In this document: positions 4,772 through 63,681 of the stretch, one piece after another | Numbering within the stretch: position 1 is the first letter of the stretch | Layout of the letters: every line of letters begins with the position of its first letter | Notes under the pieces: model-generated | What the model was told of the DNA's origin: nothing | The model's input: only the letters and a program-made list of their open reading frames with translations | The model's database searches: none | From: Prevotella fusca JCM 17724 | Lineage (GTDB): Bacteria; Bacteroidota; Bacteroidia; Bacteroidales; Bacteroidaceae | Length of the DNA: 64,000 nucleotides | Direction of reading: 5' to 3' | NCBI RefSeq assembly: GCF_001262015.1 | Contig: NZ_CP012074.1 | Span: 1,764,249 to 1,828,248 of the forward strand | Program-made: the position numbers and the translations under genes

Positions 4772-4861
4772 AATTTTCTTCATGAAAAGAATTATTTTTT
4801 TTCACGAAAAGAAATATTTATCTTCATGAAAAAAAATAATTCTTTTCATGAAGAAAATTTG
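4772..4861. repeat. Family A 22-bp phased palindrome array, copy 1
   Basis: Four cores TTCATGAA, TTCACGAA, TTCATGAA and TTCATGAA start at 4779, 4801, 4823 and 4845, exactly 22 bp apart, with AT-rich 14-bp spacers. Positions 4772-4859 as a whole are an 88-bp near-perfect palindrome centred on AAATATTT, with only a few mismatches around the inner two cores. Confidence 0.9.
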
Positions 4862-5044
4862 TTTGATAGGGTAGACTTCTGCTTTAATCCTTGTCTGTCA
4901 TCATTTTATAGATACCGTCAATAGTTAACATTCACGCTCCATTAATCCCTACTCTCGTTTGTCATCTTTATATAGATACCATCATCACCTATCACCCGTC
5001 ACCCATCACCCACCACCTAATAATATATAAATCTTATGCTTTTA

Positions 5045-5076
5045 TTTTGTTATCCCGCTAAGTTGCAGTAACTTTG
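5045..5076 (+). promoter_or_regulatory. metK promoter (Bacteroidota -33/-7 type)
   Basis: TAACTTTG at 5069-5076 matches the -7 consensus TAnnTTTG, and TTTTG at 5045-5049 matches the -33 box, with 19 bp between TTTG and the -7 box. It lies 50 bp before the metK start codon. Confidence 0.7.
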
Positions 5077-5126
5077 CACTCTTAAACTGAAAATAAACAG
5101 TAAAATCAAATATAAAACATAAGTAT

Positions 5127-6419
5127 ATGGCATATTTGTTTTCATCGGAATCTGTATCTGAGGGACACCCAGATAAGGTTGCCGATCAGATAAGTGACGC
5201 ATTACTCGACCAGTTTCTTGCATACGACGAGGATGCACGTTGCGCAATAGAAACCTTTAACACCACAGGACAGGTGGTGATTATGGGTGAGGTGAGGTCT
5301 AAGGAATATGTTGATCTTCAGACGATAGCCCGCAAGACCATCAACAGGATAGGCTATACAAAGGCTGAATACCAGTTTGATGGCAACAGCTGTGGTATTC
5401 TCTCTGCCATCCATGAGCAGAGTGATGACATCAACCGTGGTGTTGACAATGGTGATGCTGACAATCAGGGAGCCGGCGACCAGGGTATGATGTTCGGTTA
5501 TGCCTGCAACGAGACAGACAGTTATATGCCTGTCACGCTCGACCTGTCGCATCTCATCATGAGCACATTGGCTGACATCCGCAGGGAGGGCAAGCTGATG
5601 ACTTATCTCCGCCCGGACTCCAAGAGCCAGGTGACAGTGGAGTACAGCGATGACAATATCCCGCAGCGTATTGACACGATTGTCGTTTCTACACAGCATG
5701 ACGACTTCATCCAGCCTGCTGACAGCTCACGTGAGGCACAGCTAAAGGCGGATAAGGAGATGGTGGAACAGATTTACAAGGATGTCCTTGAGATCCTGAT
5801 GCCACGTGTGAAGGCACAGATTACGTCGGAGAAGGTGCTCGCACTGTTCAATGACAATATCAAGTATCTTGTCAATCCGACAGGTAAGTTTGTGATTGGC
5901 GGTCCTCATGGTGATACTGGTCTGACCGGTCGTAAGATTATCGTTGATACTTACGGCGGTAAGGGCGGTCACGGTGGTGGTGCCTTCTCGGGTAAGGATT
6001 CAAGTAAGGTAGACCGCTCTGCAGCCTATGCAGCACGCTACATTGCCAAGAACATGGTAGCGGCCGGTGTGAGTGATGAGATACTCGTACAGCTGGCTTA
6101 CGCTATTGGTGTTGCCGAGCCTGTCAGCGTTTATGTGAATACCTACGGTCGTTCGCACGTAAAGGCTACTGATGGTGAAATTGCAGAACAGGTGAAGAAG
6201 CTGTTTGACCTTCGTCCGAAGGCTATCGAGAAATCGCTGAAGCTGCGACAGCCAATGTATCTGGAGACTGCTGCCTACGGTCACATGGGACGCAAGAATG
6301 AGGTTGTGAAGAAGACCTTTGAAAGTCGTTACCACGAGACAAAGACGGTTGATGTGGAACTTTTCACTTGGGAAAAGCTCGACCGTGTGGACGAAATCAA
6401 AAAGACATTCGGACTTTAA
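5127..6419 (+). CDS. metK: S-adenosylmethionine synthetase
   Basis: A 430-residue enzyme making S-adenosylmethionine from methionine and ATP. It begins with the family pattern [20 protein letters not shown], carries [12 protein letters not shown] in the first third, and has the flexible-loop and phosphate-binding segment [15 protein letters not shown] followed by [12 protein letters not shown]. It is slightly longer than the roughly 385-residue enterobacterial enzyme, as is usual in Bacteroidota. It opens a co-directional run of six genes, and DUF4271 follows after only 6 bp, so the two are probably cotranscribed from the promoter at 5045-5076. Confidence 0.97.
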
Positions 6420-6425
6420 CAGACA

Positions 6426-7358
6426 ATGCCGACAACTGATTCCATTGCTCGCCCCTCCCTGCTGTTGAAATCAACATTGGCGGCAGGACAGAAGGCGGAT
6501 GCTGATTCTGTGGCAAGGGCGGGTCAGGCTACTGACTCGTCTATCTTGTTGCGCCCCAAAAAGCAGAAGACGTTTCAGCTGACGGATTTCAAATTTGCAG
6601 AAGAAGGCTACTTCAAAGGAAACAAGTATTTCAAGCTGGGACGTGGAAACGGACATGCTGACGGCGTGTCGGGCGTTCTTGCCCCTTATGCCGTAAGCAA
6701 TGACAATACGATTACGGCACTGCTCCTGGGCTGTTTCGTGATGGCGATGGTGGCATTCTCCGTGTCGCATAATTTCATTGAACGGCAGATAAAGAGCTTC
6801 TTCCGCATCAGCCGCAGCAAGGATTCGATGACGGAGACTGACACTGAGGTGCGTTTTCAGATTTTCCTGATACTGCAGACCTCCTTGCTGGGAAGTATTC
6901 TCTATTACTTCTTTGCGCATGACAGTGGAAGTGGCAGGCTTGAGAGCGATTCGCAGATTGGGATGATAGGATGCTTCTTTGGCATTTTCGCAGGCTATTT
7001 CCTGTTCAAGTATGTGGTCTATGGATTTGTCAACTGGGTGTTCTTTGATAGGAAAAATAACGGACGATGGAGGCGGTCTTGGCTCTTCCTTTCCTCGCTT
7101 GAGGGTGTACTGTTGTTCCCTGCCGTCCTGCTACTGGTTTATTTCTCTTTGTCGCTCAACGCAGCATTGATTTATACACTGATTGTCATGTTATTTATCA
7201 AAATGCTTGCTTTTTATAAGGGTTATACCATCTTTTTCAAAAGAATCGGTGCCAGTCTGCAAATAATTTTGTACTTTTGTGCGCTCGAATTGATGCCGTT
7301 GATGGTATTGTGGGGCGTTTTGTTGATTACAGATAACTATTTGATAATAAACTTTTAG
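6426..7358 (+). CDS. DUF4271 family membrane protein
   Basis: A 310-residue protein with a polar N-terminal region of about 90 residues followed by roughly seven hydrophobic segments. In Bacteroidales, a DUF4271 membrane protein lies directly upstream of hemD, and that position matches here: hemD starts 6 bp downstream. The biochemical role is unknown. Its fixed place beside hemD and rnpA suggests a housekeeping membrane function. The start is the only ATG close behind metK. Confidence 0.8.
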   Translation: MPTTDSIARPSLLLKSTLAAGQKADADSVARAGQATDSSILLRPKKQKTFQLTDFKFAEEGYFKGNKYFKLGRGNGHADGVSGVLAPYAVSNDNTITALLLGCFVMAMVAFSVSHNFIERQIKSFFRISRSKDSMTETDTEVRFQIFLILQTSLLGSILYYFFAHDSGSGRLESDSQIGMIGCFFGIFAGYFLFKYVVYGFVNWVFFDRKNNGRWRRSWLFLSSLEGVLLFPAVLLLVYFSLSLNAALIYTLIVMLFIKMLAFYKGYTIFFKRIGASLQIILYFCALELMPLMVLWGVLLITDNYLIINF

Positions 7359-7364
7359 GACAAG

Positions 7365-8120
7365 ATGATAAAAAAGATCTTGGTTTCACAACCAAAGCCG
7401 TCAAGCGAAAAGTCGCCCTACTATGATATAGCAACGGACTTAGGGGTGGAACTGGTATTCAGACCGTTTTTTAAAGTGGAAGGACTCTCAGCGAAAGAGT
7501 TCCGTCAGCAGAAAGTTAACCTGCTGGACTATACAGCTGTGGTGTTTACTTCCCGCCATGCCGTAGACAATTACTTTAATCTTGCCAAGGAAATGCGCAT
7601 CACCATCCCAGAGGATATGAAGTATTTCTGTGTGATTGAAACGATTGCGCTCTACATCCAGAAGTATGTGCAGTATCGCAAGCGTAAGGTGTTCTTTGGA
7701 AATACAGGTAAGATAGACAGTCTTATCCCAACGATGGTCAAGCACAAGACTGAGAAGTATCTCGTTCCGCAGAGCTCTGTTCATACGGACTCGCTGACCA
7801 AGCTGTTGGATACAAACAAGCTCAAGCACAAGGAGTGTGTGATGTATCGTACGGTAAGTAACGGACTGACAGATGAGGAAGTGAAGAACTTTGATTATGA
7901 TATGCTTGTGTTCTTCAGCCCTACAGGAGTGAAGGCCTTGAAGGAGAATATCCCTGACTTCAAACAAGGGGATATAAAGATAGCAGCCTTTGGTCCTGCT
8001 ACTGCCAAGGAAGTTGAGGCGCAGGGATTGAAACTTGACCTGCAGGCTCCGTCTCAGGAGTATCCTTCCATGACGGGCGCACTGCGTGCTTTCTTGGAGA
8101 AACAGAAGAAGAATAAGTGA
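7365..8120 (+). CDS. hemD: Uroporphyrinogen-III synthase family protein
   Basis: A 251-residue HemD-fold protein. The start KKILVSQPKPSSEKSPYYDI matches the Bacteroidales HemD N-terminus. The domain swap region with VFTSRHAVDNYF and the second-lobe segment VFFSPTGVKAL then IAAFGPATAKEV are family landmarks. The enzyme closes and isomerises hydroxymethylbilane to uroporphyrinogen III in tetrapyrrole synthesis. Many Prevotella lack a full haem pathway, so the enzyme's role here is uncertain; no other hem gene is in the window. It lies in the conserved order DUF4271-hemD-rnpA-yidD-tyrS. Confidence 0.85.
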   Translation: MIKKILVSQPKPSSEKSPYYDIATDLGVELVFRPFFKVEGLSAKEFRQQKVNLLDYTAVVFTSRHAVDNYFNLAKEMRITIPEDMKYFCVIETIALYIQKYVQYRKRKVFFGNTGKIDSLIPTMVKHKTEKYLVPQSSVHTDSLTKLLDTNKLKHKECVMYRTVSNGLTDEEVKNFDYDMLVFFSPTGVKALKENIPDFKQGDIKIAAFGPATAKEVEAQGLKLDLQAPSQEYPSMTGALRAFLEKQKKNK

Positions 8121-8204
8121 TATAACGGCTTCTTTCCCATCTGAAAGGATGAGAGAGAAGCCGGCATCAGTACTGGGTATGTCGAATTTACAGGCTGAAA
8201 AGGA

Positions 8205-8630
8205 ATGGAAAAGCATGAAGAAAAACTGAGGAAAGGCGAACGTCTATGCAGCAGGAGACTCATAGACATACTCTTTGGTGCAGGTGGAAGTCATGCGATG
8301 ACTGCGTTCCCTTTGAAGGCTGTTTACAGACTGGTTGAAAGCAATTCAGTCTCTTCAGCATCGGAAGATGATGTTGATGAGTCGAAAGTACAGGTGCTGG
8401 TCAGTGTTCCTAAGAAGCATTTCAAGCGTGCCGTGAAGCGTAACAGGGTGAAACGACAGGTGCGTGAGGCTTATCGAAAGCACAAGAGTTTTGTGATGCT
8501 TCGTGTGAACGAGTATGCAGACAAGCAGTTGCTGATTGCTTTTATATGGCTTTCAGATGAGTTGGCTGACTCTGTTACGGTAGAACAGCGGGTTTCTAAT
8601 CTGCTTCAAAGAATAGGAGAACGTATCTGA
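8205..8630 (+). CDS. rnpA: Ribonuclease P protein component
   Basis: A 141-residue basic protein that helps the RNase P RNA process tRNA 5' ends. [17 protein letters not shown] at the start and the RNR-type motif [18 protein letters not shown] (about residues 70-87) are diagnostic. In many bacteria rnpA follows rpmH near oriC, but in Bacteroidales it sits in this hemD-yidD-tyrS context. Its stop codon overlaps the yidD start in TGATG, indicating translational coupling. Confidence 0.95.
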
Positions 8631-8929
8631 TGGAAGAGAAGGAAATGGACGGAAAGGTATCACATGAGCAGTCGTCAAAGAATGTTTTTGTCAGGTTGTG
8701 GCGTCTTTTTACACGTGGCTTATCGTGGCTGTTGATACTTCCGATACTCTTTTATCGCCAGTTCATATCTCCTTTTACGCCACCTTCCTGTCGCTTCACA
8801 CCCACCTGTTCGGAGTACGGCAGGCAGGCTATCCTGAAGCACGGACCTTTCAAGGGTCTGGCTCTCACCATCTGGCGTATATTAAGATGTAATCCGTGGG
8901 GCGGCAGTGGCTATGACCCTGTACCCTAA
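8630..8929 (+). CDS. yidD: Membrane protein insertion efficiency factor YidD
   Basis: A 99-residue peripheral membrane protein thought to assist YidC-dependent insertion. The conserved block [20 protein letters not shown] followed by [20 protein letters not shown] and the C-terminal [14 protein letters not shown] are almost invariant in the family. An N-terminal extension of about 25 polar residues precedes the core; a start further inside would drop the overlap with rnpA, so I keep the coupled start. Confidence 0.95.
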
Positions 8930-9035
8930 CGATGCTCACATATAGAATATTAATACAGAGTTGAGGCTTGTGAAGAATGGGCAGAAAGCCTTTAACGTCT
9001 TCAATCCCTTGACTCCTTAAAGTATAAAGACATAA

Positions 9036-10334
9036 ATGAAGAACTTTGTAGAAGAACTCCGTTGGCGTGGTATGCTGGCTCAGATGATGCCGGGTACAGA
9101 GGAAATGCTTCAGAAAGAAATGGTTTCAGCTTACTTGGGTACTGACCCTACAGCTGACTCTTTGCACATCGGACACCTTTGTGGTATCATGATGTTGCGC
9201 CATTTGCAGCGTTGCGGACACAAACCTTACCTCCTTGTGGGTGGTGCTACAGGTATGATTGGTGACCCTTCAGGTAAGAGTCAGGAGCGTAACCTGCTTG
9301 ATGCGGAAACACTTTATCATAACCAGGAGGCTATCAAGAAGCAGGTAAGCAAGTTCCTTGACTTCGATGGCAACGAGCCTAACAAGGCTGAGATGGTGAA
9401 TAACTACGATTGGATGAAGGACTTTACATTCCTTGACTTCGCTCGGTTGGTTGGTAAGCACATCACTGTCAACTATATGATGGCTAAGGACAGTGTGAAG
9501 AAGCGTCTTAGTGGTGAGGCTCGTGACGGACTTAGCTTTACTGAGTTCACTTATCAGCTCCTGCAGGGCTACGACTTCCTCTATCTCTATGATAAGTTCG
9601 GTGTGAAGTTACAGCTGGGTGGTAATGACCAGTGGGGTAATATGACTACTGGTACAGAACTTATCCGTCGTACTTTAAGCAACGAAGCTGAGGCATATTG
9701 CCTTACTTGTCCATTGATTACAAAGGCAGATGGTAAGAAGTTCGGTAAGACAGAAAGCGGTAATATCTGGCTCGATCGTAACCGTACTACACCATACGCT
9801 TTCTATCAGTTCTGGCTGAATGTCAGTGATGATGATGCCGAGAAGTATATCAAGATCTTCACTTCTTTGGAGAAGGATGTCATTGATAGTCTCGTTGAAG
9901 AGCACCGTCAGGACCCAGGTCGTCGTACGCTTCAGTACCGTCTTGCAGAGGAGGTTACCCGTATGGTTCACTCACAGGAAGACCTCGATATGGCGATTGC
10001 AGCCTCTAACATCCTCTTTGGCAAGAGTACAAAGGAAAACTTGCTGCAGTTGGATGAGCAGACTTTCGCTGACGTGTTCAAGGATGTACCACATTATGAA
10101 GTATCAAAGGATGTTCTTGGTCAGCCCGCAGTTGATGTCTTCAATCAGGAAGGTATGCAGATTTTCCCAAGCAAGAGTGAGATGCGTAAGCTCGTAAAGG
10201 GCGGTGGCGTTGCACTCAACAAGGAGAAACTCGCAGCTTTCGACCAGCCTGTAACAGCCGAGGACCTTATTGATGGTAAGTATCTCCTTGTACAGAAGGG
10301 TAAGAAGAACTACTCTCTGATTATTGTAAAATAA
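9036..10334 (+). CDS. tyrS: Tyrosyl-tRNA synthetase
   Basis: A 432-residue class I aminoacyl-tRNA synthetase. The HIGH signature is at residues 44-47, the tyrosine-binding block [20 protein letters not shown] with GGNDQWGN lies near 175-202, and KFGKT at 235-239 takes the place of KMSKS, as in bacterial TyrRS. The C-terminal 70 residues fit an S4 RNA-binding domain. It closes the metK-to-tyrS run and is followed by a strong hairpin terminator. Confidence 0.97.
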
Positions 10335-10362
10335 GCCTTCAGGCTTATACTATATAACTATG

Positions 10363-10404
10363 AAAAAGCCTTACTGCGCCCGTTGCGGTGCTGCAAGGCT
10401 TTTT
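10363..10404 (+). terminator. Rho-independent terminator after tyrS
   Basis: Stem AAAAAGCCTT (10363-10372) pairs with AAGGCTTTTT (10395-10404) across a GC-rich loop. It lies 29 bp after the tyrS stop. Confidence 0.8.
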
Positions 10405-10460
10405 GATTAACCACTCCCATTGAATTTATCAGGATATTCAAGGACCTAAAAAGATTCATT

Positions 10461-11687
10461 ATGAAGAAAATCTTCCTTCTTTTACAGCTGGCATTGCTTG
10501 TTCTTTTTGCCTCTTGTAGCAGTGATGTCCCACTACCATACCCTACACCACAGCCTCCTACCGAGGCAGAGAACACAATCTTTGTCTATATGCCGTGGTC
10601 AGGTAGTCCCGGTAGTCTCTATCCTTTCTTCCAAAAGAATCTGACAGACATCAAGCAGGCGGTTGAGTCTCAGGGAGGATTAGGTGATAAACATCTGATT
10701 GTATTCATCTCTGATTCACCTTCAAAAGGTTCGCTGATAAATGTCAAGTATCAGCAGGGACGTTGTGTGGATGATACGGTAGCTGTATTCAATAATACGC
10801 TTGCCAGCCAACAGTTGAACTCAGCTAACTGGATAACCACAGTACTGAAACGTGTACAGGCTTATGCACCGGCTCGCAGCTATTCAATGATAGTGGGCTG
10901 TCATGGTATGGGTTGGATCCCCGGCAACTCTGGGACACGCAGGCGTTACACCACTTCCGCTTTCAGAAGACGTGATGTAGAACGCCTCCCTTTGACCCGC
11001 TGGTTCGGTGGTGATACTTACAAGACCGACATCTCCACCTTTGATAAAGGTATCGAACAGTCAGGTATCGGCAAGATGCAGTATATTCTTTTTGATGACT
11101 GCTATATGTCAACCATCGAGGTGGCTTATGAGCTCCGTCACAGTGCAAAGCATATCATAGCCTGTCCTACAGAGATTATGGCGCACGGTATGCCTTACGA
11201 CCTCCTGTGGACAGAACTCTCAAAGAGCAGTCCTGACTATGGAAGTATCTGCGATACATTCTATAATTTCTACATCAGCTATTCTTATCCTTACGGAACA
11301 ATCGGTGTTATTGACTGTTCGCAGATTGACGGGATGGTCGATATCATGAAGTCAATCAACCATTCTGGTAATCTTGTAAGCGTATCAGAGGATGATGTGC
11401 AGATTATGGATGGTTACCAGCCTGCCATGTTCTTCGATATGGGTGATTATGTACGCAAGATAGCGAAAAATGAAACAGCCCTGTTAGCTCGTTTCGAGCG
11501 TCAGCTCAGTCTGCTCGTACCGTATAAGCGTAATACCCCGTCGTTCTTTACGGAAGTGAGAAGCCCGGGTGTCGGTGACGTCCTGCCTATAAACACTTAC
11601 TCGGGCATAACCATCTCCGACCTTTCAAGTAATACGATGGTGAAAAAAGTATTGGCATACAGCCCATATTATAAGGCTACGCATTAA
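10461..11687 (+). CDS. Clostripain-family (C11) cysteine peptidase lipoprotein
   Basis: A 408-residue predicted lipoprotein (lipobox FASC, Cys19) with a caspase-like C11 fold. The catalytic histidine is in VGCHGMGW (His148) and the catalytic cysteine in YILFDDCYMSTIEVAYELR (Cys214), the order and spacing expected for clostripain-like peptidases. These enzymes cleave after Arg/Lys. The lipid anchor and likely outer-membrane location suggest degradation of host or neighbour proteins, but this is inference. A Pro-rich linker follows the lipidated cysteine. No partner gene is adjacent, and it is convergent with the FMN oxidase gene. It has its own promoter region after the tyrS terminator. Confidence 0.85.
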   Translation: MKKIFLLLQLALLVLFASCSSDVPLPYPTPQPPTEAENTIFVYMPWSGSPGSLYPFFQKNLTDIKQAVESQGGLGDKHLIVFISDSPSKGSLINVKYQQGRCVDDTVAVFNNTLASQQLNSANWITTVLKRVQAYAPARSYSMIVGCHGMGWIPGNSGTRRRYTTSAFRRRDVERLPLTRWFGGDTYKTDISTFDKGIEQSGIGKMQYILFDDCYMSTIEVAYELRHSAKHIIACPTEIMAHGMPYDLLWTELSKSSPDYGSICDTFYNFYISYSYPYGTIGVIDCSQIDGMVDIMKSINHSGNLVSVSEDDVQIMDGYQPAMFFDMGDYVRKIAKNETALLARFERQLSLLVPYKRNTPSFFTEVRSPGVGDVLPINTYSGITISDLSSNTMVKKVLAYSPYYKATH

Positions 11688-11711
11688 GAGAATATGAATC
11701 TTGAAGAATAA

Positions 11712-11775
11712 GGTTAAGCTACCTAAACTGATGATAATAGTAAAGCTATATGAAGATAGTATAGGTAGCTAAACC
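11712..11775. terminator. Long inverted repeat between convergent genes
   Basis: GGTTAAGCTACCTA at 11712 pairs with TAGGTAGCTAAACC ending at 11775 with one mismatch, and the AT-rich interior can also partly pair. It lies between the clostripain gene and the minus-strand oxidase gene and could serve as a bidirectional terminator, although no long T tract follows. Confidence 0.5.
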
Positions 11776-11783
11776 TGTAAGGA

Positions 11784-13844: not shown

Positions 13845-13925
13845 ATTACCGAGAAGAGTAATCGTAACTCGCTTTGAGCGTAAGTTGCTTCTATACTAAC
13901 AACATATTGTAAGGTGATTAACCCT

Positions 13926-14008
13926 CCGCACTATTGGTGTTTAGCATCCGCACCATTGGTGTTTGCCGTTCGCACCATTGGTGTTTACCAACAACACGAT
14001 GTTAAATA
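13926..14008. repeat. Family C 22-bp phased array, copy 1
   Basis: Units starting at 13926, 13948, 13970 and 13992 are exactly 22 bp apart. Their cores are CACTATTGGTGTTT, CACCATTGGTGTTT, CACCATTGGTGTTT and the degenerate ACACGATGTTAAAT. The palindromic centre is ACCATTGGT. Confidence 0.85.
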
Positions 14009-18912: not shown

Positions 18913-18959
18913 CCTTTTTTTCATTAATATTTCATCAGCGTCAAGATGTGGATGTTTCC

Positions 18960-19050
18960 AAATTCTTTTCATGAAGAAAAATATTTCTTTTCATGAAAAT
19001 AAATATTTCTTTTCGTGAAGAAAATTATTTTTTCTCATGAAGATAAACTG
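18960..19050. repeat. Family A 22-bp phased palindrome array, copy 2
   Basis: Cores TTCATGAA, TTCATGAA, TTCGTGAA and CTCATGAA start at 18968, 18990, 19012 and 19034, exactly 22 bp apart. The spacers are AT-rich (for example GAAAAATATTTCTT). The left edge AAATTCTTTTC and right edge AAGATAAACTGTTT resemble copies 1 and 4. Confidence 0.9.
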
Positions 19051-19465: not shown

Positions 19466-19682
19466 AATTTTGATTTATTTATTGATTAATTTTATGAATG
19501 ATATACAAGATTATGCTGCAAATATAGTCGTTTACTTTTATAAAACAAATAAAATCAAGGGAAAAGTGTAGAAATTTATAAAAAAAAGCCTTTATCTTCC
19601 TCGTTTCCTGCTTGATAACAGGAGAATTTCGTAATTTTGCAGTGATTAAATGATACATTGTAAAGAATAAGAAAATTAATAA

Positions 19683-25369: not shown

Positions 25370-25583
25370 ATACCACGTCAGTTGGAAATGGGAAGAGGTG
25401 TTTATGATGGTCATTATAATATAGTAAGGCTCTAATGATTAGCTTATGTGGAAATGTTTGTCGGACAGCACTAATGATTAAGCCTAATCAGTCATTAGAG
25501 CACAATATCCATTATTCTTATTAATCATATTGTTGCCTGACACCTAATACTCTCTTGTCGGCATCTTATATGTCTTTATAACT

Positions 25584-25664
25584 TGACTTAGTCCGCTACG
25601 CCTTCGTTACAAATACAAACAATCTGTTCGACAATAAAACAAAATCTGCTTAGACTCTGATAAA
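25584..25664. repeat. Family E repeat, copy 1
   Basis: About 80 bp align at roughly three-quarters identity with 45353-45433, sharing CTTCGTTA, ACAAACAATCTG and AAAATCTG blocks at the same spacing. No ORF or hairpin explains it. Confidence 0.65.
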
Positions 25665-25682
25665 GAATTGGGAATAAATGAT

Positions 25683-25740: not shown

Positions 25741-25776
25741 AAAGTTTTCCGGAGTCATTACTCCTTATCTTCTGCA

Positions 25777-25865
25777 AATTATTTTCACGAGAAAAAACAT
25801 TTATTTATGTGAGAAGAAATATTTGTTTTCACGAAGAAAAATATTTCTTTTCACGAAAATAATTC
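25777..25865. repeat. Family A 22-bp phased palindrome array, copy 3
   Basis: Cores TTCACGAG, TATGTGAG, TTCACGAA and TTCACGAA start at 25784, 25806, 25828 and 25850, exactly 22 bp apart. Here most cores carry CACG rather than CATG. The edges AAATTATTTTC and GAAAATAATT are mutually inverted. Confidence 0.88.
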
Positions 25866-25866
25866 G

Positions 25867-30997: not shown

Positions 30998-31551
30998 GCA
31001 GTCTGCCAACATCCTATATCCAAAAGATTAAGAAGAAGCCTTGCTGTTCAAGAAGGTGTGATTGGAAGTGGTCAGTCTCCAAGTTAAGATTAAATCGTGC
31101 TTTTGCGGATTATGAAAGGGAATATTACAAGTTAGTGTTGTCTGGTAAATACTTCCCGTATGTGTTAGTCATTGGTGCCTTACTGTATTTTATAATGATA
31201 ATAAAGAAACTCTCTTTCCCATTTTCTACCGATGTGTTGTTGCCCAGCACACGTGGTGTTAAGGGTAAACACCAATCGTGTTGTTGGTAAACACCAATGG
31301 TGTTAGGGGCTAAACACCTTGCGGTATGTTGCCGGGATGCGAGTAACTTGTTGTCAGGAAAGCGTCGTGTTACCAAAAGGTAAACAATACCTGTTTGATT
31401 TGGAGAGACTTGCTTTTCCAACGATAAGATGATGTTCTCTGTTTAAAAGGATTCCACACGGGAGGTTATACTGTTTAACCTAAATCGGTCATCAGAGCCT
31501 GTGCATCCTCTTCATTTATGGAGGTGATAAGAAATGAGCTTTTGTTTCATT
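30998..31551. other. Convergent intergenic region with family C array
   Basis: Nothing here looks like a gene. The region contains the family C array at 31236-31325 and, near 31478, a short segment (CTAAATCGGTCATCAGAGC) resembling one at about 25485. Confidence 0.6.
31236..31325. repeat. Family C 22-bp phased array, copy 3
   Basis: Units at 31240, 31262, 31284 and 31306 are exactly 22 bp apart, in the opposite orientation to copies 1 and 2. Cores are CACACGTGGTGTTA, AAACACCAATCGTG, AAACACCAATGGTG and the degenerate TAAACACCTTG. Confidence 0.85.
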
Positions 31552-40180: not shown

Positions 40181-40274
40181 CAAATTATTTTCATGAAAAG
40201 AAATATTTTTTGTCGTGAAAATAAATATTTATCTTCATGAAAAGAAATTCTTTTTTTCATGAAGATAAATTGTT
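40181..40274. repeat. Family A 22-bp phased palindrome array, copy 4
   Basis: Cores TTCATGAA, GTCGTGAA, TTCATGAA and TTCATGAA start at 40190, 40212, 40234 and 40256, exactly 22 bp apart. It lies between the convergent UPF0597 and TPR lipoprotein genes. Confidence 0.9.
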
Positions 40275-44944: not shown

Positions 44945-45035
44945 ACGCTTAATAGCGTTGCAACTAAGCCTTAATTGAGGTGCAACTAAGGCTTAATTGA
45001 ACGCTTAAAGGGCGTTAGTTGGAATGCAATTAAGC
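44945..45035. repeat. Family B 11-bp phased array, copy 2
   Basis: From 44959 the sequence is seven consecutive 11-bp units, for example TGCAACTAAGC, CTTAATTGAGG, TGCAACTAAGG, CTTAATTGAAC, GTTAGTTGGAA and TGCAATTAAGC. Units alternate between a sense and a roughly complementary form. Confidence 0.8.
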
Positions 45036-54945: not shown

Positions 54946-54965
54946 CATGCTAAATATTTGAAACA

Positions 54966-56267: not shown

Positions 56268-56378
56268 AATTGTTATGTAAGTATAACAGCCATGGTCAAC
56301 CAACGTTTCTAATACCACAATGGCTTGTTGTGAAAGACGGTTCTCTCCAAAAAGCCCGTCGGCTGCATGAAGAAAGGC

Positions 56379-56609
56379 TTAGCTTCTTTTGTCGTCATTA
56401 CGACCGTTAACGTATTTCCGAAAGTTATACAACATCTTGCATCCATAGATAAATATCAAACAACCTATGGTTTTCAGAAAAGCAGTAGTATATATCTCTT
56501 CCTCCCCTTTCAGTATTTCAACAAGTAAAAATGTCAAGAACATCAATAGGAGAAAAACCAGAAGTCTGACAGTCTTCTTATGATATAGCATGTGAATTCT
56601 ATTACTCAT
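56379..56609 (-). CDS. Small hypothetical membrane protein
   Basis: A 76-residue protein with two strong hydrophobic segments (about residues 14-30 and 43-58) separated by a charged loop KGEEEIY, and a basic C-terminus ending in NDDKRS. Length and hydrophobic pattern suggest a real membrane protein, but no family is recognised and no promoter is clear. Its C-terminal part overlaps a weak opposite-strand frame, which I left out. Confidence is moderate. Confidence 0.45.
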   Translation of the reverse strand: MSNRIHMLYHKKTVRLLVFLLLMFLTFLLVEILKGEEEIYTTAFLKTIGCLIFIYGCKMLYNFRKYVNGRNDDKRS

Positions 56610-56781
56610 TTTTCCAATAAAGTTTACTGTTTACAGTTACATCTGAAATCATCATTAAGTCCCCGCAGACAGCGGATTGAAAAATCATGACATAATTTCG
56701 GGTAAAACATCTATAAATAAAGATGAAAACACGTGTAAAAAGCAAGTTTGCAACCAACAGTAAATCAGTTAGTTATAAAGT

Positions 56782-56878
56782 GGTGCAAGAAAAGGTGCTT
56801 AATTGGACTTCAAAAGGGCGTTAGTTAGACCTCAAAAGGGCATCTATTGCAAGCCAATTAGGCGTCTTTTAGAAGCCA
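56782..56878. repeat. Family B 11-bp phased array, copy 3
   Basis: From 56797 seven 11-bp units run in phase, for example GCTTAATTGGA, CTTCAAAAGGG, CGTTAGTTAGA, CCTCAAAAGGG and AGCCAATTAGG, more diverged than copy 1. The left flank GTGCAAGAAAAGGTGCTTAA matches copy 1. Confidence 0.75.
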
Positions 56879-57571
56879 AGAGACCATGTGTTGGTTTTGA
56901 ACTGCATGAAAATAGTTTACAAACGTTGGGCTGTATGAGAATAAGTTGTTTGTAGAAGACGGAAAGACATGGTATTTATTTGCCTTTTCTGCATTTTTAT
57001 CTTGTGCTTTATCCTCCTTTGTGAGACCGTCTGTTTTGGGATAGTCATACCATGCAAGCGTATAAGCCTTTATTCCATTTCCAATCTATGCATTTAATGG
57101 AAGAACCCTTTGTTTTGGAATTTTCTTCATAAATTATCTTGTTCCTATTGTCAAGGGATGGAGCATTGAATATATAAGGTCAAGTTTGTGGTTTATGGAT
57201 TGGTCTGCCCAGGCTGTTTCTGTGTTTAGAACAAGTAAAAAAGCAGATTCACCGCCCCTGGTTTTTATTTTAGAGAAGGTGTTGGCATTCCGATGATTCG
57301 CTCTGCAAAATTGACTGGTACTCCAATTGGAGGGAGGTTAATCAATCAGTCAGTCGTTGGTGTTTTTCTGAAGAATATGTCCCTGACTTACTATCTGTTG
57401 GGTTTCTTTAACTCTCCTGTCAGTACAGATTTAATCAATGCAATCAACCTTTCGACTAATAAGCCAGAGGGGAAAGCAATGCGTTGTATTCTTCTTTTAT
57501 AATATTTTTGTCTTTCAATCTCAGAAAAAATGCGTAAGTTTGCAGTTAGAATATAACCATAAACTACCAAG

Positions 57572-58204
57572 ATGGAAGATTTAAAGAAAGTCTTTGCGGG
57601 CAAACTGCTCGGAATTAAAGCTATTAAGTTGCAGCCTAATGACCCGTTCACATGGGCAAGTGGTTGGAAATCACCATTCTATTGTGATAACCGCAAGACG
57701 CTGTCGTTCCACGATGTGCGTTCATTCGTGAAACTTGAGCTGGTTCATGCCATCCTTGAGAACTTCCCGGAGGCGACGGCTGTGGCTGGTGTGGCTACGG
57801 GCGCGATAGCACAGGGAATGCTTGTAGCTGATGAGCTGGCGTTGCCATACGCATACGTTCGTCCGAAACCGAAGGACCATGGGATGAAGAACCAGATTGA
57901 AGGAGAACTGCCTGCAGGTGCGAAGGTCATCGTTGTTGAGGACCTCATCTCTACTGGTGGCTCATCCCTGAAGGCTGTTGCTGCCCTTCGTGAGGCTGGA
58001 TTTGAGGTTGTGGGTATGGTAGCTTCTTACACCTACGGCTTCCCTGTAGCTGAAGAGGCATTCCGTGAGGCAGGCGTGCAGCTTGTTACCCTTACTGATT
58101 ATGAGCATGTTGTGGAGAAAGCACTCGAGACAGGTTATATCAAGGAGGCGGAAGTTCCTATGCTGCATGAGTGGCGGAAAGACCCGGCAAATTGGAAAAA
58201 GTAA
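57572..58204 (+). CDS. pyrE: Orotate phosphoribosyltransferase
   Basis: A 210-residue type I PRTase that joins orotate and PRPP in pyrimidine synthesis. The PRPP loop is VIVVEDLISTGGSSLKAV, and the N-terminal FTWASGWKSPFYCDNR and the flexible loop segment YAYVRPKPKDHGMKNQIEG are typical. In Bacteroidales pyrE is followed by an SRPBCC-family gene, and that order holds here. It has its own -7 box TAAGTTTG at 57535-57542. Confidence 0.95.
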   Translation: MEDLKKVFAGKLLGIKAIKLQPNDPFTWASGWKSPFYCDNRKTLSFHDVRSFVKLELVHAILENFPEATAVAGVATGAIAQGMLVADELALPYAYVRPKPKDHGMKNQIEGELPAGAKVIVVEDLISTGGSSLKAVAALREAGFEVVGMVASYTYGFPVAEEAFREAGVQLVTLTDYEHVVEKALETGYIKEAEVPMLHEWRKDPANWKK

Positions 58205-58458
58205 ATGTTGGAAATTTCTTTTGGAAGTTAAAGGCGATAGTCACCTCCCATTGGTTGCTTAGGAAGTCAAAGGGTAATAGCGTCAAGGGCAGGTGTGGAA
58301 AGAAGACTGTCGGTGATAATGTTGGGGCGCATGCTTTGTATGTCCTCCATCAATCTGTACTTTCAGACGTGCGAGCCGTATGTTCCTGTTTCATGATACA
58401 GTGTCGTCTTGCATGTGCCTCCCGACTTCCAAATTAGATTCCCGAATATAAAATAACA

Positions 58459-58908
58459 ATGACAAAGTTTGAAAGTAGCGTAAAGCAGATACCCCATTCT
58501 CAGCAGAGTGTGTATAACACGCTGAGCGATTTGAATAACATACAGCGTCTGAAAGAACGTCTCCCGGAGGGTTCTACAGGTAATGATGACATGGATAAGG
58601 TGAAAGAGAAACTGCAGAATCTCACCTTTGACCAGGATTCGCTGTCTATCAGTGTTGACCCGGTCGGTCAGATTTCCATGCGCATCATTGAGCGTGACGA
58701 GCCGAAGACGATAAAGTTTGAGAGTGACAACTCCCCGTTGTCGTTCAATTTCTGGATTCAGATACTGCCTGTCACCGAGGCATCCTCAAAGATGAAGCTC
58801 ACGATAGATGCTGATATTCCTTTCTTTGCAAAGGGGATGGTGTCAAAGCCATTGCAGGAGGGTATCGAGAAGATTGCCGATGCGTTGGCAATGATTCCGT
58901 TTGAGTAG
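58459..58908 (+). CDS. SRPBCC/START-like fold protein
   Basis: A 149-residue protein of the SRPBCC (polyketide cyclase/Bet v1-like) superfamily: KFESSVKQIPHSQQSVYNTLSDL as the N-terminal strand and helix, then RIIERDEPKTIKFES and the long C-terminal helix ending ALAMIPFE. These proteins bind small hydrophobic ligands. It is conserved downstream of pyrE in Bacteroidales, here after a 254-bp gap with nothing recognised. No ligand can be inferred. Confidence 0.85.
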   Translation: MTKFESSVKQIPHSQQSVYNTLSDLNNIQRLKERLPEGSTGNDDMDKVKEKLQNLTFDQDSLSISVDPVGQISMRIIERDEPKTIKFESDNSPLSFNFWIQILPVTEASSKMKLTIDADIPFFAKGMVSKPLQEGIEKIADALAMIPFE

Positions 58909-59086
58909 TTCGGTAGACGGTCTCGGGCTTTTATCTTGTCTCCACGGAGGACTTGGAGTGTTACGATGATTGTCATGATTCTGAATTTGGGATTATGAGT
59001 TATGAGTCAGTTTTAATCTTAGTCTCAGGTTTTGGATTTAGAATTAGGAACGTTCGTTATTATGAATCTTGATTTGGAAGTTAAGT

Positions 59087-59671
59087 ATGAGAAAGATTAT
59101 TCAATCCATTCTGTTTCTGGTTGTCGTGCTGTTGTCATCCTGTGGTGACAGTGTCGATTATGAGTACAGTAGTCATCGTAACTTCTTTACCTTTCATAAT
59201 GAAACACATCAGAATCCTATCCTTGCATCTGCAATGAACCCGCTGTCACCCGGTGTGTATTGCATCATAAGGTGTTCCTTTGTCAGCGGACGTTATAGTT
59301 TCTCTTTTGAGAATAATCAAGGACAGAAGTCTGATGCACCTGTGTGGTTCAATGGTATCGACCTCAGGTTGGAGAGCTGGAAGTATGTGGGGATGAATAA
59401 TGGACTCATTGTGGGCTATGGCAACTTGGATAATCCGTCCCCCTTCTTTGCCTACGACCTGCAGTGTCCTAACTGTTTTGATGCAAATGTGCTTCCCCAG
59501 CGTTCTTGCGAATTGAAGATGAGCAGTGACGGTATTGCCGCTTGCAGCAGTTGCCGCCGCAAGTATAATCTCAACACTGGTGGGAATGTTGTGGCTGGTG
59601 AGAGTGGAAAGAAACTGACACGCTATCGCGCCAGCAGTACAGGACCTTATGGTGTGTTGGGGGTGAATTAA
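59087..59671 (+). CDS. Lipoprotein with two CxxC pairs (Rieske-like layout)
   Basis: A 194-residue lipoprotein (lipobox LSSC). Late in the protein, CPNCFDANV and, about 30 residues later, CSSCRRKYNLNTGG place two cysteine pairs as in a Rieske [2Fe-2S] domain, but the histidine positions are cysteines. That pattern would favour a zinc ribbon or a four-cysteine iron site rather than a classical Rieske centre. The preceding 110 residues are beta-rich. I chose the ATG at 59087, which gives a clean signal; six codons upstream is another ATG. A strong terminator follows directly. Confidence 0.75.
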   Translation: MRKIIQSILFLVVVLLSSCGDSVDYEYSSHRNFFTFHNETHQNPILASAMNPLSPGVYCIIRCSFVSGRYSFSFENNQGQKSDAPVWFNGIDLRLESWKYVGMNNGLIVGYGNLDNPSPFFAYDLQCPNCFDANVLPQRSCELKMSSDGIAACSSCRRKYNLNTGGNVVAGESGKKLTRYRASSTGPYGVLGVN

Positions 59672-59725
59672 GGGGAGCTTATCAGCCTTGTTAGCCTTCT
59701 TGGGCTAACAAGGCAGATAAGCCCC
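59672..59725 (+). terminator. Terminator after the CxxC lipoprotein (family F related)
   Basis: GCTTATC..GCCTTGTTAGCC and GGCTAACAAGGC..ATAAGC form a long stem, with AAAAAA-type sequence after. It has the TTAGCC/GGCTAA motif of family F. Confidence 0.85.
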
Positions 59726-59749
59726 ATAAATAAAAAAACTTGCAAAACC

Positions 59750-59781
59750 TTTGCCAGTTCGGAGATTTAGCCTTATCTTTG
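59750..59781 (+). promoter_or_regulatory. tRNA-Leu promoter
   Basis: TTTG at 59750-59753 and TATCTTTG at 59774-59781, 20 bp apart, match the Bacteroidota consensus fully. The tRNA begins 11 bp later. Confidence 0.8.
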
Positions 59782-59791
59782 CAAACGGTTT

Positions 59792-59877
59792 GCCGCAATG
59801 GTGGAATTGGTAGACACGAGGGACTTAAAATCCCTTGGCCAGTAATGGCTGTGCGGGTTCGAGTCCCGCTCGCGGCA
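59792..59877 (+). tRNA. tRNA-Leu (anticodon TAA)
   Basis: GCCGCAA pairs with TCGCGGC as acceptor stem and A is the discriminator. The anticodon loop CTTAAAA reads TAA. A long variable arm (TGGCCAGTAATGGCTG) is present as expected for Leu. CCA is not encoded. Confidence 0.95.
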
Positions 59878-59895
59878 CTTCTTTCTTAAATCTTT

Positions 59896-60891
59896 ATGCG
59901 CATGAAGCGAATAGCATACATACTTTTGTTCCCTCTGCTGTTGGTTTCTTGTGGTACCCGCAGCGGTTACTTCAAGATGGGAGGACGCTTCCTGCACATG
60001 AATCAAGGTGAACTTTATGTTTATAGTCCCGATGGTGGTATCAATGGCTTGGATACAATCAAGATTGAAGCGGGACGCTTTTCTTACGAGAAGCCTTGCA
60101 GCAAGCCTTCTACACTGATAGTCATTTTCCCTAATTTCTCCACACAGCCTATCTTTGCCGAATCGGGTGAAGCCGTTGAGGTGAAGGCGGATGCTTCCCA
60201 CTTGAAAGAGATGGAAGTGGAGGGTACGAAGGATAATGAACTCATGACAAAGTTCCGCAAACAGATAGCCAGTGCTTCACCTCCAGAGGAGCTGAAGTAT
60301 GCTATACAGTTTATCAATGACCATCCTGAATCGGTTGTGAGTACGTATCTGCTCAACCGTTATCTTGTTCAGACGGAGTCTCCTGACTATAAGCAGGCGG
60401 CAAAGCTCTTGCCTATTTTAATGAAAGAGCAGCCTGATAACGTCATCTTGGGGCGTCTTCAAAGGCAGCTGAATGAGCTTGGCACGTTGACGGTAGGCGG
60501 CAAGTTGCCTAAGTTTTCAGCCAAGGATGTCAAAGGAAAAGCTGTCAATAATGCTACTTTGCAGGGAAAGAGTGTTGTCATCATCAATGCTTGGGCGAAC
60601 TGGAGTTACGAGAGTCTCGACATCCAGCGTGCGCTGAACGATGCCGTAAAAGCTGGGAAAATAGCTGCTTTGGGTATCTGCATAGACGCCAATCCTAAGG
60701 AGATACGCCAGTCGTTGGAGCGTGATGGCATTGATTTCCCCAACGTCTGTGACGGGAAACTGCTCAACACACCTCTGCTCAAAACCTTTGGTCTTACCAC
60801 AATACCTGATAATATCGTCATTCGCAACGGAAAGGTGACCGAACGGAATATCACCGCTAATACCATCCGTCAGCGTTATGGCACTGACTAA
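59896..60891 (+). CDS. DUF4369/thioredoxin-fold lipoprotein without redox cysteines
   Basis: A 331-residue lipoprotein (lipobox LVSC, Cys19). Residues about 20-110 match the DUF4369 type, common at the start of Bacteroidales thiol proteins. Residues about 195-330 have the AhpC/TSA-thioredoxin fold with GGKLPKFSAKDVKGKAVN. At the active site, WCxxC is replaced by W236-SYES240: both cysteines are serine. It therefore cannot do disulphide exchange in the usual way and may have kept a binding or chaperone role. The YifB gene starts 12 bp after its stop. Confidence 0.85.
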   Translation: MRMKRIAYILLFPLLLVSCGTRSGYFKMGGRFLHMNQGELYVYSPDGGINGLDTIKIEAGRFSYEKPCSKPSTLIVIFPNFSTQPIFAESGEAVEVKADASHLKEMEVEGTKDNELMTKFRKQIASASPPEELKYAIQFINDHPESVVSTYLLNRYLVQTESPDYKQAAKLLPILMKEQPDNVILGRLQRQLNELGTLTVGGKLPKFSAKDVKGKAVNNATLQGKSVVIINAWANWSYESLDIQRALNDAVKAGKIAALGICIDANPKEIRQSLERDGIDFPNVCDGKLLNTPLLKTFGLTTIPDNIVIRNGKVTERNITANTIRQRYGTD

Positions 60892-60902
60892 AAACCTATA
60901 TT

Positions 60903-62444
60903 GTGCTTGTAAAAACATTCTGTGCAGCTGTCAACGGAATGGAAGTCACCACCGTGACAGTCGAAGTTAGTATAACGCGGGGCGTATTGTTTCACCTTAC
61001 CGGTCTGGCTGATGGGGCGGTAAAGGAGAGTCATGACCGCATAGCAGCAGCACTACTCAATACGGGTTACAAGTTTCCTGTAGCCGACATCACCGCTAAT
61101 CTTGCTCCTGCCGACCTCAAGAAGGAAGGTTCCAGTTTTGATCTTCCATTGGCTATAGCCATTCTTGCCGCCAATGAGAAGATGAGTCATGACCGTTTGC
61201 GTGAGTTCATGCTCGTGGGAGAATTGAGTCTTGACGGTACTTTACAGCCAGTCAAAGGTGTGCTGCCCATAGCCATCAAGGCGCGTGCTGAGAAGTTCAA
61301 GGGGATTATTGTACCGAAAGCCAATGAGCATGAGGCGGCAGTGGTAGACACGTTAGAGGTCTATGGAATGGATAATATCCTGCAAGTCATTGACTTCCTT
61401 AATGGCACAACGTCTCCAGAACCTTGTTTTGTCGATACCCGAAAGGAGTTCTATGAGCATCAGTATGCCTTTGACCTCGACTTTGCTGACGTTTGTGGAC
61501 AGGAGAATGTGAAGCGTGCATTGGAGGTAGCGGCTGCCGGTGGGCATAATCTTATCATGATCGGACCGCCCGGAAGTGGAAAGAGTATGATGGCAAAGCG
61601 TCTTCCGTCCATTCTTCCTCCCCTGTCACTCTCGGAGAGTCTGGAGACAACGCAGATTCATTCCATCGCCGGTAAGCTGCGTCGTGATACAGGACTGATA
61701 ACGCAACGTCCCTTCCGTAGCCCCCATCACACCATCTCTGAGGTTGCCCTTGTGGGTGGTGGAGTTAATCCAATGCCGGGTGAGATAACCCTTGCGCATA
61801 ATGGTGTGCTCTTCTGTGATGAGCTACCTGAATTCAATAAACATACTTTAGAGGTGCTTCGGCAGCCTTTGGAAGACCGCCAGATAACCATCTCACGTGC
61901 AAAATATACAGTCACTTATCCTTGTAGCTTTATGTTCGTGGCGAGTATGAATCCCTGTCCCTGTGGCTATTTTGCTGATCCTACGCATCATTGTGTCTGC
62001 ACGCCGGGACAGATTCAGAAGTACCTTGCCAAGATATCCGGTCCGCTGATGGACAGAATAGACATCCAGTGTGAGATAGCTCCGCTTCCTTTCAAGGATA
62101 TATCACGGGCAACACCGGGCGAACCAAGTGCTGCTATCCGTGAGCGGGTTATCCGTGCCCGTGCCATTCAGACCAAGCGTTTCAGCAGTTATCGTAATAT
62201 TCACTGTAATGCGCAGATGTCTGAGCGTATGATTCACGAGTTTGCCGAGCCTGATGAAGCCTCTATCAAACTGCTCCGTGACGCTATGGAACGTTTGAAA
62301 CTGTCTGCCCGTGCTTATAACAGAATCCTGAAAGTCGCCCGTTCTATTGCTGATTTGGACGAGTCGGAGGCTGTGCAGGTGCAGCATATTGCTGAGGCAA
62401 TAGGGTATAGGAATCTGGATAGGAGTGACTGGGCGGAGAGGTGA
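60903..62444 (+). CDS. YifB/ComM-family Mg-chelatase-like AAA ATPase
   Basis: A 513-residue ATPase. The N-terminal ChlI-like domain has FHLTGLADGAVKESHDRIAAAL and SSFDLPLAIAILAA. The AAA core begins NLIMIGPPGSGKSMMAKRLPS (Walker A), with GVLFCDELPEF (Walker B region) and MNPCPCG, the C-terminal chelatase-like part follows. ComM is a helicase that aids branch migration in natural transformation in some bacteria. Together with recX and comF in this window it may reflect DNA uptake, but they are far apart. The start is a GTG at 60903, 12 bp after the previous gene. Confidence 0.92.
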   Translation: MLVKTFCAAVNGMEVTTVTVEVSITRGVLFHLTGLADGAVKESHDRIAAALLNTGYKFPVADITANLAPADLKKEGSSFDLPLAIAILAANEKMSHDRLREFMLVGELSLDGTLQPVKGVLPIAIKARAEKFKGIIVPKANEHEAAVVDTLEVYGMDNILQVIDFLNGTTSPEPCFVDTRKEFYEHQYAFDLDFADVCGQENVKRALEVAAAGGHNLIMIGPPGSGKSMMAKRLPSILPPLSLSESLETTQIHSIAGKLRRDTGLITQRPFRSPHHTISEVALVGGGVNPMPGEITLAHNGVLFCDELPEFNKHTLEVLRQPLEDRQITISRAKYTVTYPCSFMFVASMNPCPCGYFADPTHHCVCTPGQIQKYLAKISGPLMDRIDIQCEIAPLPFKDISRATPGEPSAAIRERVIRARAIQTKRFSSYRNIHCNAQMSERMIHEFAEPDEASIKLLRDAMERLKLSARAYNRILKVARSIADLDESEAVQVQHIAEAIGYRNLDRSDWAER

Positions 62445-62445
62445 A

Positions 62446-62478
62446 GCCTCCCCCAACTCCTCCGAAGGAGGGGAGTGC
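62446..62478. repeat. Family D GC-rich palindrome, copy after comM-like gene
   Basis: CCCCCAACTCCTCC and GGAGGGGAGTG form a hairpin directly after the ATPase gene stop. It may act as a terminator or as a dispersed repeat. Confidence 0.65.
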
Positions 62479-62594
62479 TGAAAAAGATGGCAAGATCGTT
62501 CAGTAACTTAGTAATGTATAGATAGTATAGGTTCCTTATAGCTGCTATAAAGACAGAAGGTTCTTATGTTTTAATATTTAAAAGTGAAAAGTAT

Positions 62595-63284
62595 ATGAGA
62601 AAGTTTATCATTCTTATACTGTTGCTGACATCCTTGAAGCTCTCGGCACAGACGGAAAGAACTCTGACGCCTGTAAACTGGAAAAAGATAGAGGCAGAAG
62701 CAAAGGATAATCCACAACACATAAAGACCCTCATGGGGTATTTCATGAAGGTGGATGCTGACACTGCATTGACGGCTGATGAACGTATCCTGGCTTTCTA
62801 TGGAAGCACTTATCTCGGCAAGGGTGTCTTGGAGGCTGAATGGGAAATGCTGAAGGCAAGAAGGGAAGGCACGAATGATGAAGTCGCAGTTATGGCAGAC
62901 AAGGTACTTGCCATCAATCCTCTTAATACGAATGCCATCATATCTAAGATATCCTATTATAGACAGGTTGCGACAGCTGACCCCGACAAGGCTTGGATGA
63001 CGACTGACAGTCTCAAGGTATATGCAGTTCGCTTACAGCGTATCTTGGAAACTATTTCCATGACGGGTGATGGCAGCAGGAAGCATCCTTTTAGTGTCAC
63101 GTCGGTAGGAGATGAGTATAATTTTGTGAATTATTTTCTTACTATCTCCAAGATAAATCGTCAGATGGTGGTAGATACATGCGACCGTCTTGTATTGGGC
63201 GAGGTGAGTGAAAAATATTCAGCTCCTGATATTTACTTCGATATAACACGTGTTCTTGAGATTGAAAGAGAGATGTTCAAATAG
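62595..63284 (+). CDS. DUF4919 family exported protein
   Basis: A 229-residue protein with a signal peptide (MRKFIILILLLTSLKLSAQ) cut near residue 19. The rest is helical with a TPR-like pattern: LTADERILAFYGSTYLGK, VMADKVLAINPLNTNAI, and DRLVLGEVSEKYSAPDIYFDITRVLE. This matches the DUF4919 type, a periplasmic family of unknown function in Bacteroidales. It is a single gene, convergent with the DUF2238 gene. Confidence 0.82.
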   Translation: MRKFIILILLLTSLKLSAQTERTLTPVNWKKIEAEAKDNPQHIKTLMGYFMKVDADTALTADERILAFYGSTYLGKGVLEAEWEMLKARREGTNDEVAVMADKVLAINPLNTNAIISKISYYRQVATADPDKAWMTTDSLKVYAVRLQRILETISMTGDGSRKHPFSVTSVGDEYNFVNYFLTISKINRQMVVDTCDRLVLGEVSEKYSAPDIYFDITRVLEIEREMFK

Positions 63285-63681
63285 CATAAAAAAATATTTG
63301 TAAGCAGCTTGTCATAATTGATTGCCAATGTATTTACGCTTGTTTTTATTCTGTCAGCCATATCGAAGAAAGTATCTTGCAAAGGATATGACTGGCGAGA
63401 ACTGCTGGAATGACAAGAATGTGGGTGAACATATTGGTAAAGCAAGGAGGAATACACAGAAGATACATATCCGTGTTCGGTTTAGAATACCTGCCTTACA
63501 GTCGCAAGGAGGCTCGCATGGCAAATTATTTTCATGAAAAGAAATATTTATTTTCATGAAGAAAAATATTTATTTTCATGAAGAAAAATATTTCTTTTCA
63601 TGAAAATAATTTCTTTTTATCGTGAAAATAATTCGTGTTTGATGGTTCGTCCTGTTGTTTTTTCCTTGCAATGACAATATA
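63285..63681. other. Convergent intergenic region with family A array
   Basis: Apart from the family A array at 63522-63634 nothing is seen. No gene is supported. Confidence 0.6.
63522..63634. repeat. Family A 22-bp phased palindrome array, copy 5 (five units)
   Basis: Cores TTCATGAA at 63531, 63553, 63575 and 63597 and ATCGTGAA at 63619 are exactly 22 bp apart, one unit more than other copies. The edges are AAATTATTTTC and GAAAATAATT. Confidence 0.92.

Follow-up and report, generated by a model that had tools for sequence, protein, structure and literature searches.

Short intergenic elements of one family, here called family A, are dispersed through several Prevotella genomes and have a fixed geometry, a common origin, many sites shared between species, constraint specific to particular positions and a preferred placement near gene 3′ ends. 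At a probability of about 0.58, we consider that each of them is a maintained cluster of four (rarely two to six) like sites for a putative homodimeric DNA-binding protein. The changes seen between orthologous elements are not compensated in the way that a hairpin would require, and this, together with the position-specific constraint, supports DNA binding sites as the best reading of the sequences. The window, that is, the whole 64-kb stretch of DNA that was analyzed, forms the end of a 1,828,248-base contig, the larger of the two that make up a 3.26-Mb Prevotella genome, and it holds five such elements (Table 1). We found no description of family A arrays in the open-access literature, and the curated Rfam families, searched at gathering score, matched three tRNAs in the window and nothing else.

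Table 1. Family A elements of the window, with coordinates from a profile (model) scan, and unrelated tandem repeats of the same period.
Feature	Coordinates	Strand	Description
Element 1	4770..4861	.	Four 22-bp units; divergent gap between a pyridoxamine kinase gene (-) and metK (+)
Element 2	18959..19050	.	Four units; orthologous element in P. jejuni (L066:13126-13217)
Element 3	25775..25866	.	Four units, degenerate second core; adjoins the 3′ end of an M16-type peptidase gene
Element 4	40181..40272	.	Four units; convergent gap, gene ends 40147 and 40378
Element 5	63522..63635	.	Five units
Unrelated tandem repeat, period 22	13925..13987	.	CACCATTGGTG-type unit, not family A
Unrelated tandem repeat, period 22	31256..31318	.	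AACACCAATCGTGTT-type unit
Unrelated tandem repeat, period 22	44959..45000	.	TGCAACTAAGCCTTAATTGAGG

Anatomy, distribution and common origin

The first-pass annotation had described five loci of dyad-symmetric cores placed exactly 22 bp apart, with inverted edges. All five arrays exist, four of them with four units and one with five, and the edges, CRAATTATT and AATAATTYG, are real; the description has to be corrected in that the second core of element 3 is poor (TATGTGAG, read on the + strand) and that four is the canonical number of units. The arrays clearly exceed chance: the window has 14 matches to a pair of cores 22 bp apart, with at most three mismatches, whereas 100 shuffles gave 0.74 on average and never more than 4, and the whole genome contains 265 core pairs with at most two mismatches, against 4 for a reversed control pattern. 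The constancy of the spacing was also borne out: when each period between 15 and 31 bp was imposed in turn on 439,385 bases, 22 bp yielded 21 chains and the other 16 yielded none (the degenerate array at 25775 escaped this detector and was recovered by the profile). Neither of the two outcomes that the first-pass annotation named as refuting it, a variable spacing and a lack of excess over chance, was therefore observed. We estimate that this genome has roughly a hundred copies.

The canonical element is 92 bp long and consists of CRAATTATT, four TTCRYGAA cores with 14 bp between them, and AATAATTYG. Its repeating unit is an 18-bp dyad (TTNTYTTCRYGAARANAA) recurring every 22 bp, with inverted ends that form terminal inverted repeats of about 17 bp (CRAATTATTTTCATGAA). 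This anatomy was derived from 107 arrays of three or more cores, distributed over five genomes (G000 46, G132 22, G146 18, P. jejuni 12, G347 9), three further places in G000 (L089, L098 and L101) with fewer than three clear cores being dropped under the three-core rule. Conservation is strong up to the C located 9 bp outside the outer core, and beyond it there are weak signals of at most 0.35 bits. Furthermore, the left and right flanks of a given element resemble each other no more than flanks taken from different elements do (89 elements), so longer terminal repeats outside the element were not seen. In a second, profile-based set, also of 107, four units are present in 97 elements, three in seven, and two, five and six in one each, and the dyad has C/G at ±2 and TT/AA at ±8 and ±9 in more than 99% of cases, while at ±7 three bases are freely tolerated and the fourth is never present. 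The predominance of four units is equally seen in 490 kb that were not chosen for arrays (the window and matched blocks), where the full elements comprise 21 of four units and one of five, in addition to two single-unit remnants and three partial matches that correspond to elements cut by the ends of the stretches. Different elements of one genome have a mean identity of 0.81-0.82.

A four-unit element in G084 (L206:18582-18670) has the ends, the spacers and the 4 x 22 layout of family A, with TACRYGTA cores in all four places, that is, with the core altered in all eight half-sites. One copy was seen, and it looks as if a change of binding specificity had left the layout intact.

In a sample of the genus comprising 398 genomes, G000 included, any three-core match was present in 38. 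Family A counts are high in G000 (164), G347 (71), G146 (61) and G132 (58), and low in G124 (4) and G378 (1). The three-core matches of G240 (19) and G354 (12) are units of another sequence; these distant Prevotella carry, at L035 and L040, other dispersed 22-bp arrays with the consensus TCATAAAGAAATGGCTGAAACT. Seven of the 12 stretches recovered in a scan of named genomes belong to P. jejuni and the remaining five hold different 22-bp units, and among 60-genome samples each of the phylum and the order, exact three-core matches were found in G000 only.

The exact edges (RAATTATTTTCATGAA) occur, after grouping of matches, at 53 places on the large chromosome of G000 and at 6 on the small one, and a slightly wider edge pattern gives 30 and 2 places, respectively, in G146. 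A chromosome-specific marking is not relied on here, since the difference is estimated to be only about two-fold because elements of the small chromosome have poorer edges; a chromosome-specific core variant is likewise weak (p 0.018). The elements of the large chromosome of G000 show no bias of orientation with respect to replication (11 vs 15 on the right arm, 4 vs 4 on the left), the origin and end of which were located approximately by sampled GC skew. In both genomes searched, the sole dnaA match is located on the smaller chromosome (L172, G000:C2:802355-803719; L171, G146:C2:223-1587); the larger chromosome, which bears most canonical elements, is without a dnaA match, and sampled GC skew places its origin near 1.70 Mb in G000.

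Dispersed repeats of other kinds are also present in the window. An intergenic repeat of about 430 bp (56677-57110) has many copies, with ~74-90% identity among the matches listed, in all six related genomes searched, and one of its copies lies in the gap corresponding to element 2 in G132, G146, G347 and G378. Another, of about 200 bp (25478-25681), has dozens of matches listed (~73-83%) in G132, G146, G347 and P. jejuni, and a third one (71-283) shows a weak internal self-similarity at 11/22 bp.

As regards the origin of family A, 42 elements of G000 share a common polarity, with a log-likelihood of -1519.7 against -1551.9 for the null (sd 3.2, best of 12 randomisations -1546.5; 12 restarts for the data and 4 per null). 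The copies therefore go back to a single polar ancestor of four units, which spread in one piece. To this extent, and as to origin only, the first-pass suggestion of a mobile element similar to the BrickBuilt elements of Porphyromonas gingivalis stands.

Shared sites, turnover and constraint

The inverted ends, the single polarity of the dispersed copies, the absence of family A from most of the genus sample and the sites that vary between species could all be accounted for if the elements were passive remnants of a small transposon (a MITE, BrickBuilt-like), devoid of present function. We regard this as unlikely, on account of what is and is not found at the sites themselves. No clear excess of target-site duplications of 2-9 bp was seen in 97 four-unit elements (the largest was 3 against 1.7-1.9 expected, at 3 bp). 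Viral contigs contained no element under the exact three-core pattern, and no plasmid was found with element 5 as query, which is a weak search given that BLAST masks low-complexity DNA.

Moreover, many sites are common to several species. When both flanks were matched, 78 of 100 element-by-genome comparisons had the element and 22 lacked it, 10 of the latter in G124 and G378; this presence is inflated because many target stretches were fetched for holding an array, and detection favours well-kept copies, decayed sites being counted as absent. In the syntenic block, three sites (elements 3 and 4 and L052:16466) are occupied in every one of the five main genomes where the site was located. Thus, G132, G146, G347 and P. 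jejuni have elements at the same M16-type peptidase gene as element 3 and in the same convergent gap as element 4. By our own grouping, the other three of the six comparable sites vary, namely element 2, for which no counterpart was found in the same gap of G132, G146 and G347, and Sites A and B; elements 1 and 5, which are comparable on both sides in no genome, stand outside this grouping.

The variation proceeds in part by whole units. At Site A, G146 has four units while G132 and G347 have a single one, a difference of exactly 66 bp, and differences of three vs four and of six vs four units occur elsewhere. Site B differs by about 240 bp, flanking DNA included. A comparison of empty and filled sites, as called for by the first-pass annotation, thus brought out sites that vary, but no clean empty site: Site A keeps one unit and the difference at Site B takes in flanking DNA, and no clean insertion was seen at the compared sites. 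Two P. jejuni elements, L065:17262-17353 and 19468-19559, lie 2.2 kb apart, and the flanks of both match a single site in G132, G146 and G347; judging by these flanks, the pair looks as it would after a local duplication.

The constraint acting at shared sites also speaks against remnants without function. We aligned 41 orthologous pairs and compared the identity of the element with that of 60-bp flanks. The element is above its flanks in all 15 pairs that include G000 (0.884 vs 0.696) and in the nine that set P. jejuni against G132, G146 and G347. Among these last three genomes the means are equal (0.929 vs 0.926), with the element higher in 12 of 17 pairs and two pairs lowered because of the loss or gain of a unit. 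In the 33 pairs whose members both have four units (pairs that share sites and so are not independent), there is no change in 792 comparisons at ±9, ±8 and ±2, against 60 in 264 at ±7 and 4.5-10.6% at the other positions. Since gene conversion would not spare a position located beside invariant ones, we read this pattern as selection on a binding site. Element 3, left out of these 33 pairs because only one of its flanks is syntenic, shows one change at ±2 in each comparison with its four counterparts, and four to six of eight at ±7. Dyad sites are consequently found at helix-phased spacing and under position-specific constraint, and the phased array of binding sites proposed in the first-pass annotation is supported, also by the lack of hairpin compensation described below. 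The recognition of a lost transposase could have shaped the founder element, not the later constraint.

Gene context and the folding of transcripts

All 107 arrays lie outside the genes predicted by a simple caller. The context was studied in 68 elements for which both neighbouring genes were called and the gap did not exceed 1,500 bp, leaving out 27 arrays with no called gene on one side of the stretch and 11 with longer gaps. Convergent gaps are strongly preferred (25 vs 8.2 expected by gap length, p 1.6e-7), while divergent gaps (6 vs 13.6, p 0.02) and tandem gaps (37 vs 46.2) hold fewer elements than expected. Within tandem gaps, 30 elements are closer to the upstream 3′ end and seven to the downstream start.

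This placement near 3′ ends would also be expected of an RNA element, transcribed 3′ of genes, whose long hairpins end or stabilise the mRNA. Indeed, the four window elements that were folded, element 3 being left out, give strong structures (z -5.0 to -10.8), but any chain of dyads folds. Among 94 facing 3′ ends, 26 are less than 40 bp from an element with no terminator found between by a terminator scan, and separate terminators occur at 20; an intrinsic terminator is ruled against, the sequences being AT-rich, without a GC-rich stem and a T-run. In tandem gaps the orientation relative to transcription shows no clear skew (15 vs 25, by our own count).

Among the changes between orthologues, single ones that keep a pair as G-U number 33 cells for one long hairpin and 30 for two hairpins, but double changes that keep a pair are 0 against 122 pair gains or losses in the former model, and 2 against 93 in the latter. 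In addition, pairing between the two halves is poorer inside one element than when halves of different elements are combined (0.772 vs 0.796, se 0.0065), because of the polarity. As the changes are hardly compensated, it is the DNA that is kept, and we judge a transcribed element to be quite improbable.

Coming back to DNA binding sites, one dimer would sit on each 18-bp dyad, and the 22-bp step, of about two helical turns, would set the four dimers on roughly one face. Neighbouring dimers may touch and bend or wrap about 90 bp of DNA, in the way of Lrp/AsnC-type multimers of dimers. The role of such complexes would likely be architectural (nucleoid or supercoil domains, or insulation) rather than the regulation of single promoters, because most of them would be located past the 3′ ends of genes, in many cases between two convergent ones. 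Twenty-two bp is slightly above two turns of relaxed B-DNA, which counts against this arrangement; it suits underwound DNA of about 11 bp per turn. In Prevotella, little is established, to our knowledge, about the packing of the two chromosomes. A platform that is under constraint, varies little in size and recurs at about a hundred known places would, with its exact spacing and its critical positions already mapped, offer a direct bait for the protein.

The 22-bp period beyond family A and comparison with known systems

The period of 22 bp is not exclusive to family A, a point that the first-pass annotation had missed. In seven genomes, 45 of 75 other tandem repeats with a period of at least 8 have a period of 22, the next best period having 4; one of the 45 (L169) resembles a missed family A copy, and a stricter count gives 43. 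Shared 9-mers divide them into ten groups, of which the two largest have 20 and 10 members, and none of the 27 that were checked lies inside a called gene. Gapped palindromes in these units have a mean arm of 4.40 vs 3.42 in shuffled sequences, with arms of at least 5 in 20 of 43 against 4.6 expected; strict even palindromes show no excess in the other 22-bp units (3.77 vs 3.63).

A count of 8-mers repeated at each lag, with family A masked and the other lags that are not multiples of 3 as baseline, yields the same period. At lag 22 there are 35 repeats in G000 (mean 5.1, sd 2.8), 43 in the blocks of four related genomes (5.8, sd 3.4), 28 in G124 and G378 (2.0, sd 1.7) and 41 in 20 other Prevotella stretches (8.0, sd 5.2), against 14 in other Bacteroidales (7.1, sd 2.8), 6 elsewhere in the phylum (7.3, sd 3.5) and 0 in 50 kb of E. 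coli (0.5, sd 0.7). Multiples of 3, which run higher from coding DNA, reach 22, 23 and 8 in the first three sets, and lag 21 reaches up to 41 in the Prevotella sample, so that the peak at 22 is clear in those three sets and less so in the 20 Prevotella stretches. Among tandem repeats of the wider sample, the period is a multiple of 22 for 6 of 28 in Prevotella and for 2 of 16 both in other Bacteroidales and in the rest of the phylum. The 22-bp period of unrelated repeats hence fades outside Prevotella, and is weaker in the wider Prevotella sample as well. Some 22-nt tandem repeats have been described in P. gingivalis W83 (PMC4596501).

That unrelated repeats should share a spacing would suggest some host factor or process by which DNA is measured off in steps of 22 bp. 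Such a process might be mutational, the replication or repair of Prevotella making 22-bp tandem duplications of which the arrays are by-products. The exact period in unrelated families and the gains and losses of whole units are in line with this idea, which leaves unexplained the dyad symmetry seen in family A and in many of the other units, the usual number of four, the shared polarity and the position-specific constraint; we hold it to be very improbable. We propose more tentatively, and at less than even odds, that the measure is a protein: one sequence-tolerant architectural protein (or several paralogues that differ in specificity) might pack dimers every two turns throughout the genus, family A being its most regular platform, with a core specificity that would shift between species while the 22-bp ruler stays.

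Among known repeats, the PINSR of Prevotella intermedia/nigrescens is also a high-copy intergenic repeat of a Prevotella sub-lineage, with about three quarters of its places conserved between two strains (PMC4755523). It is set apart by its description, being a 188-bp repeat of another clade without terminal inverted repeats, whereas family A has 92 bp and inverted ends, and the relevant section of that paper describes no 22-bp array (PMC4755523). REP/BIME sequences are abundant short palindromes as well, often located downstream of coding regions; they form stem-loops with a GTAG or CGTC tag, and RAYT transposases are associated with the GTAG type (PMC3733652). Neither tag is present at the family A ends, according to the end logo of the G000 elements, and the RAYT transposase (Y1_Tnp, PF01797) was found in none of six genomes, the control search detecting it in E. 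coli and four others of 14.

The BrickBuilt elements of P. gingivalis resemble family A in several respects, as dispersed, intergenic sequences of the Bacteroidales built of short tandem units, with whole-unit gain and loss between strains (PMC4596501). They are made of a 23-nt unit, repeated 1 to 22.8 times in 19 copies of 84-991 nt, and possess a leader and a tail, IS5-type ends (GAGACC), and filled and empty sites with short duplications (PMC4596501). Family A differs in its period of 22, the only one detected from 15 to 31 over the 439,385 bases, in the want of an equivalent to the leader and tail, its strong conservation stopping at the outer C, and in its CRAATTATT ends as compared with the GAGACCTTTGCA-type ends of BrickBuilt (PMC4596501). 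With respect to MITEs in general, family A shares the terminal inverted repeats and shows no clear target-site duplication. It is on these differences, on the lack of clear duplications and on the many sites common to several species that the mobility part of the first-pass comparison gives way.

The regions bound by Lrp/AsnC proteins constitute a close parallel in geometry. Lrp-type dimers bind clusters of imperfect dyads placed two or three turns apart, and fourfold octamers are known (PMC2995911). The dyad clusters with spacings of two or three turns and the interacting dimers resemble what we suggest for family A, which is likened to them by geometry alone; the known cases are control regions (PMC2995911).
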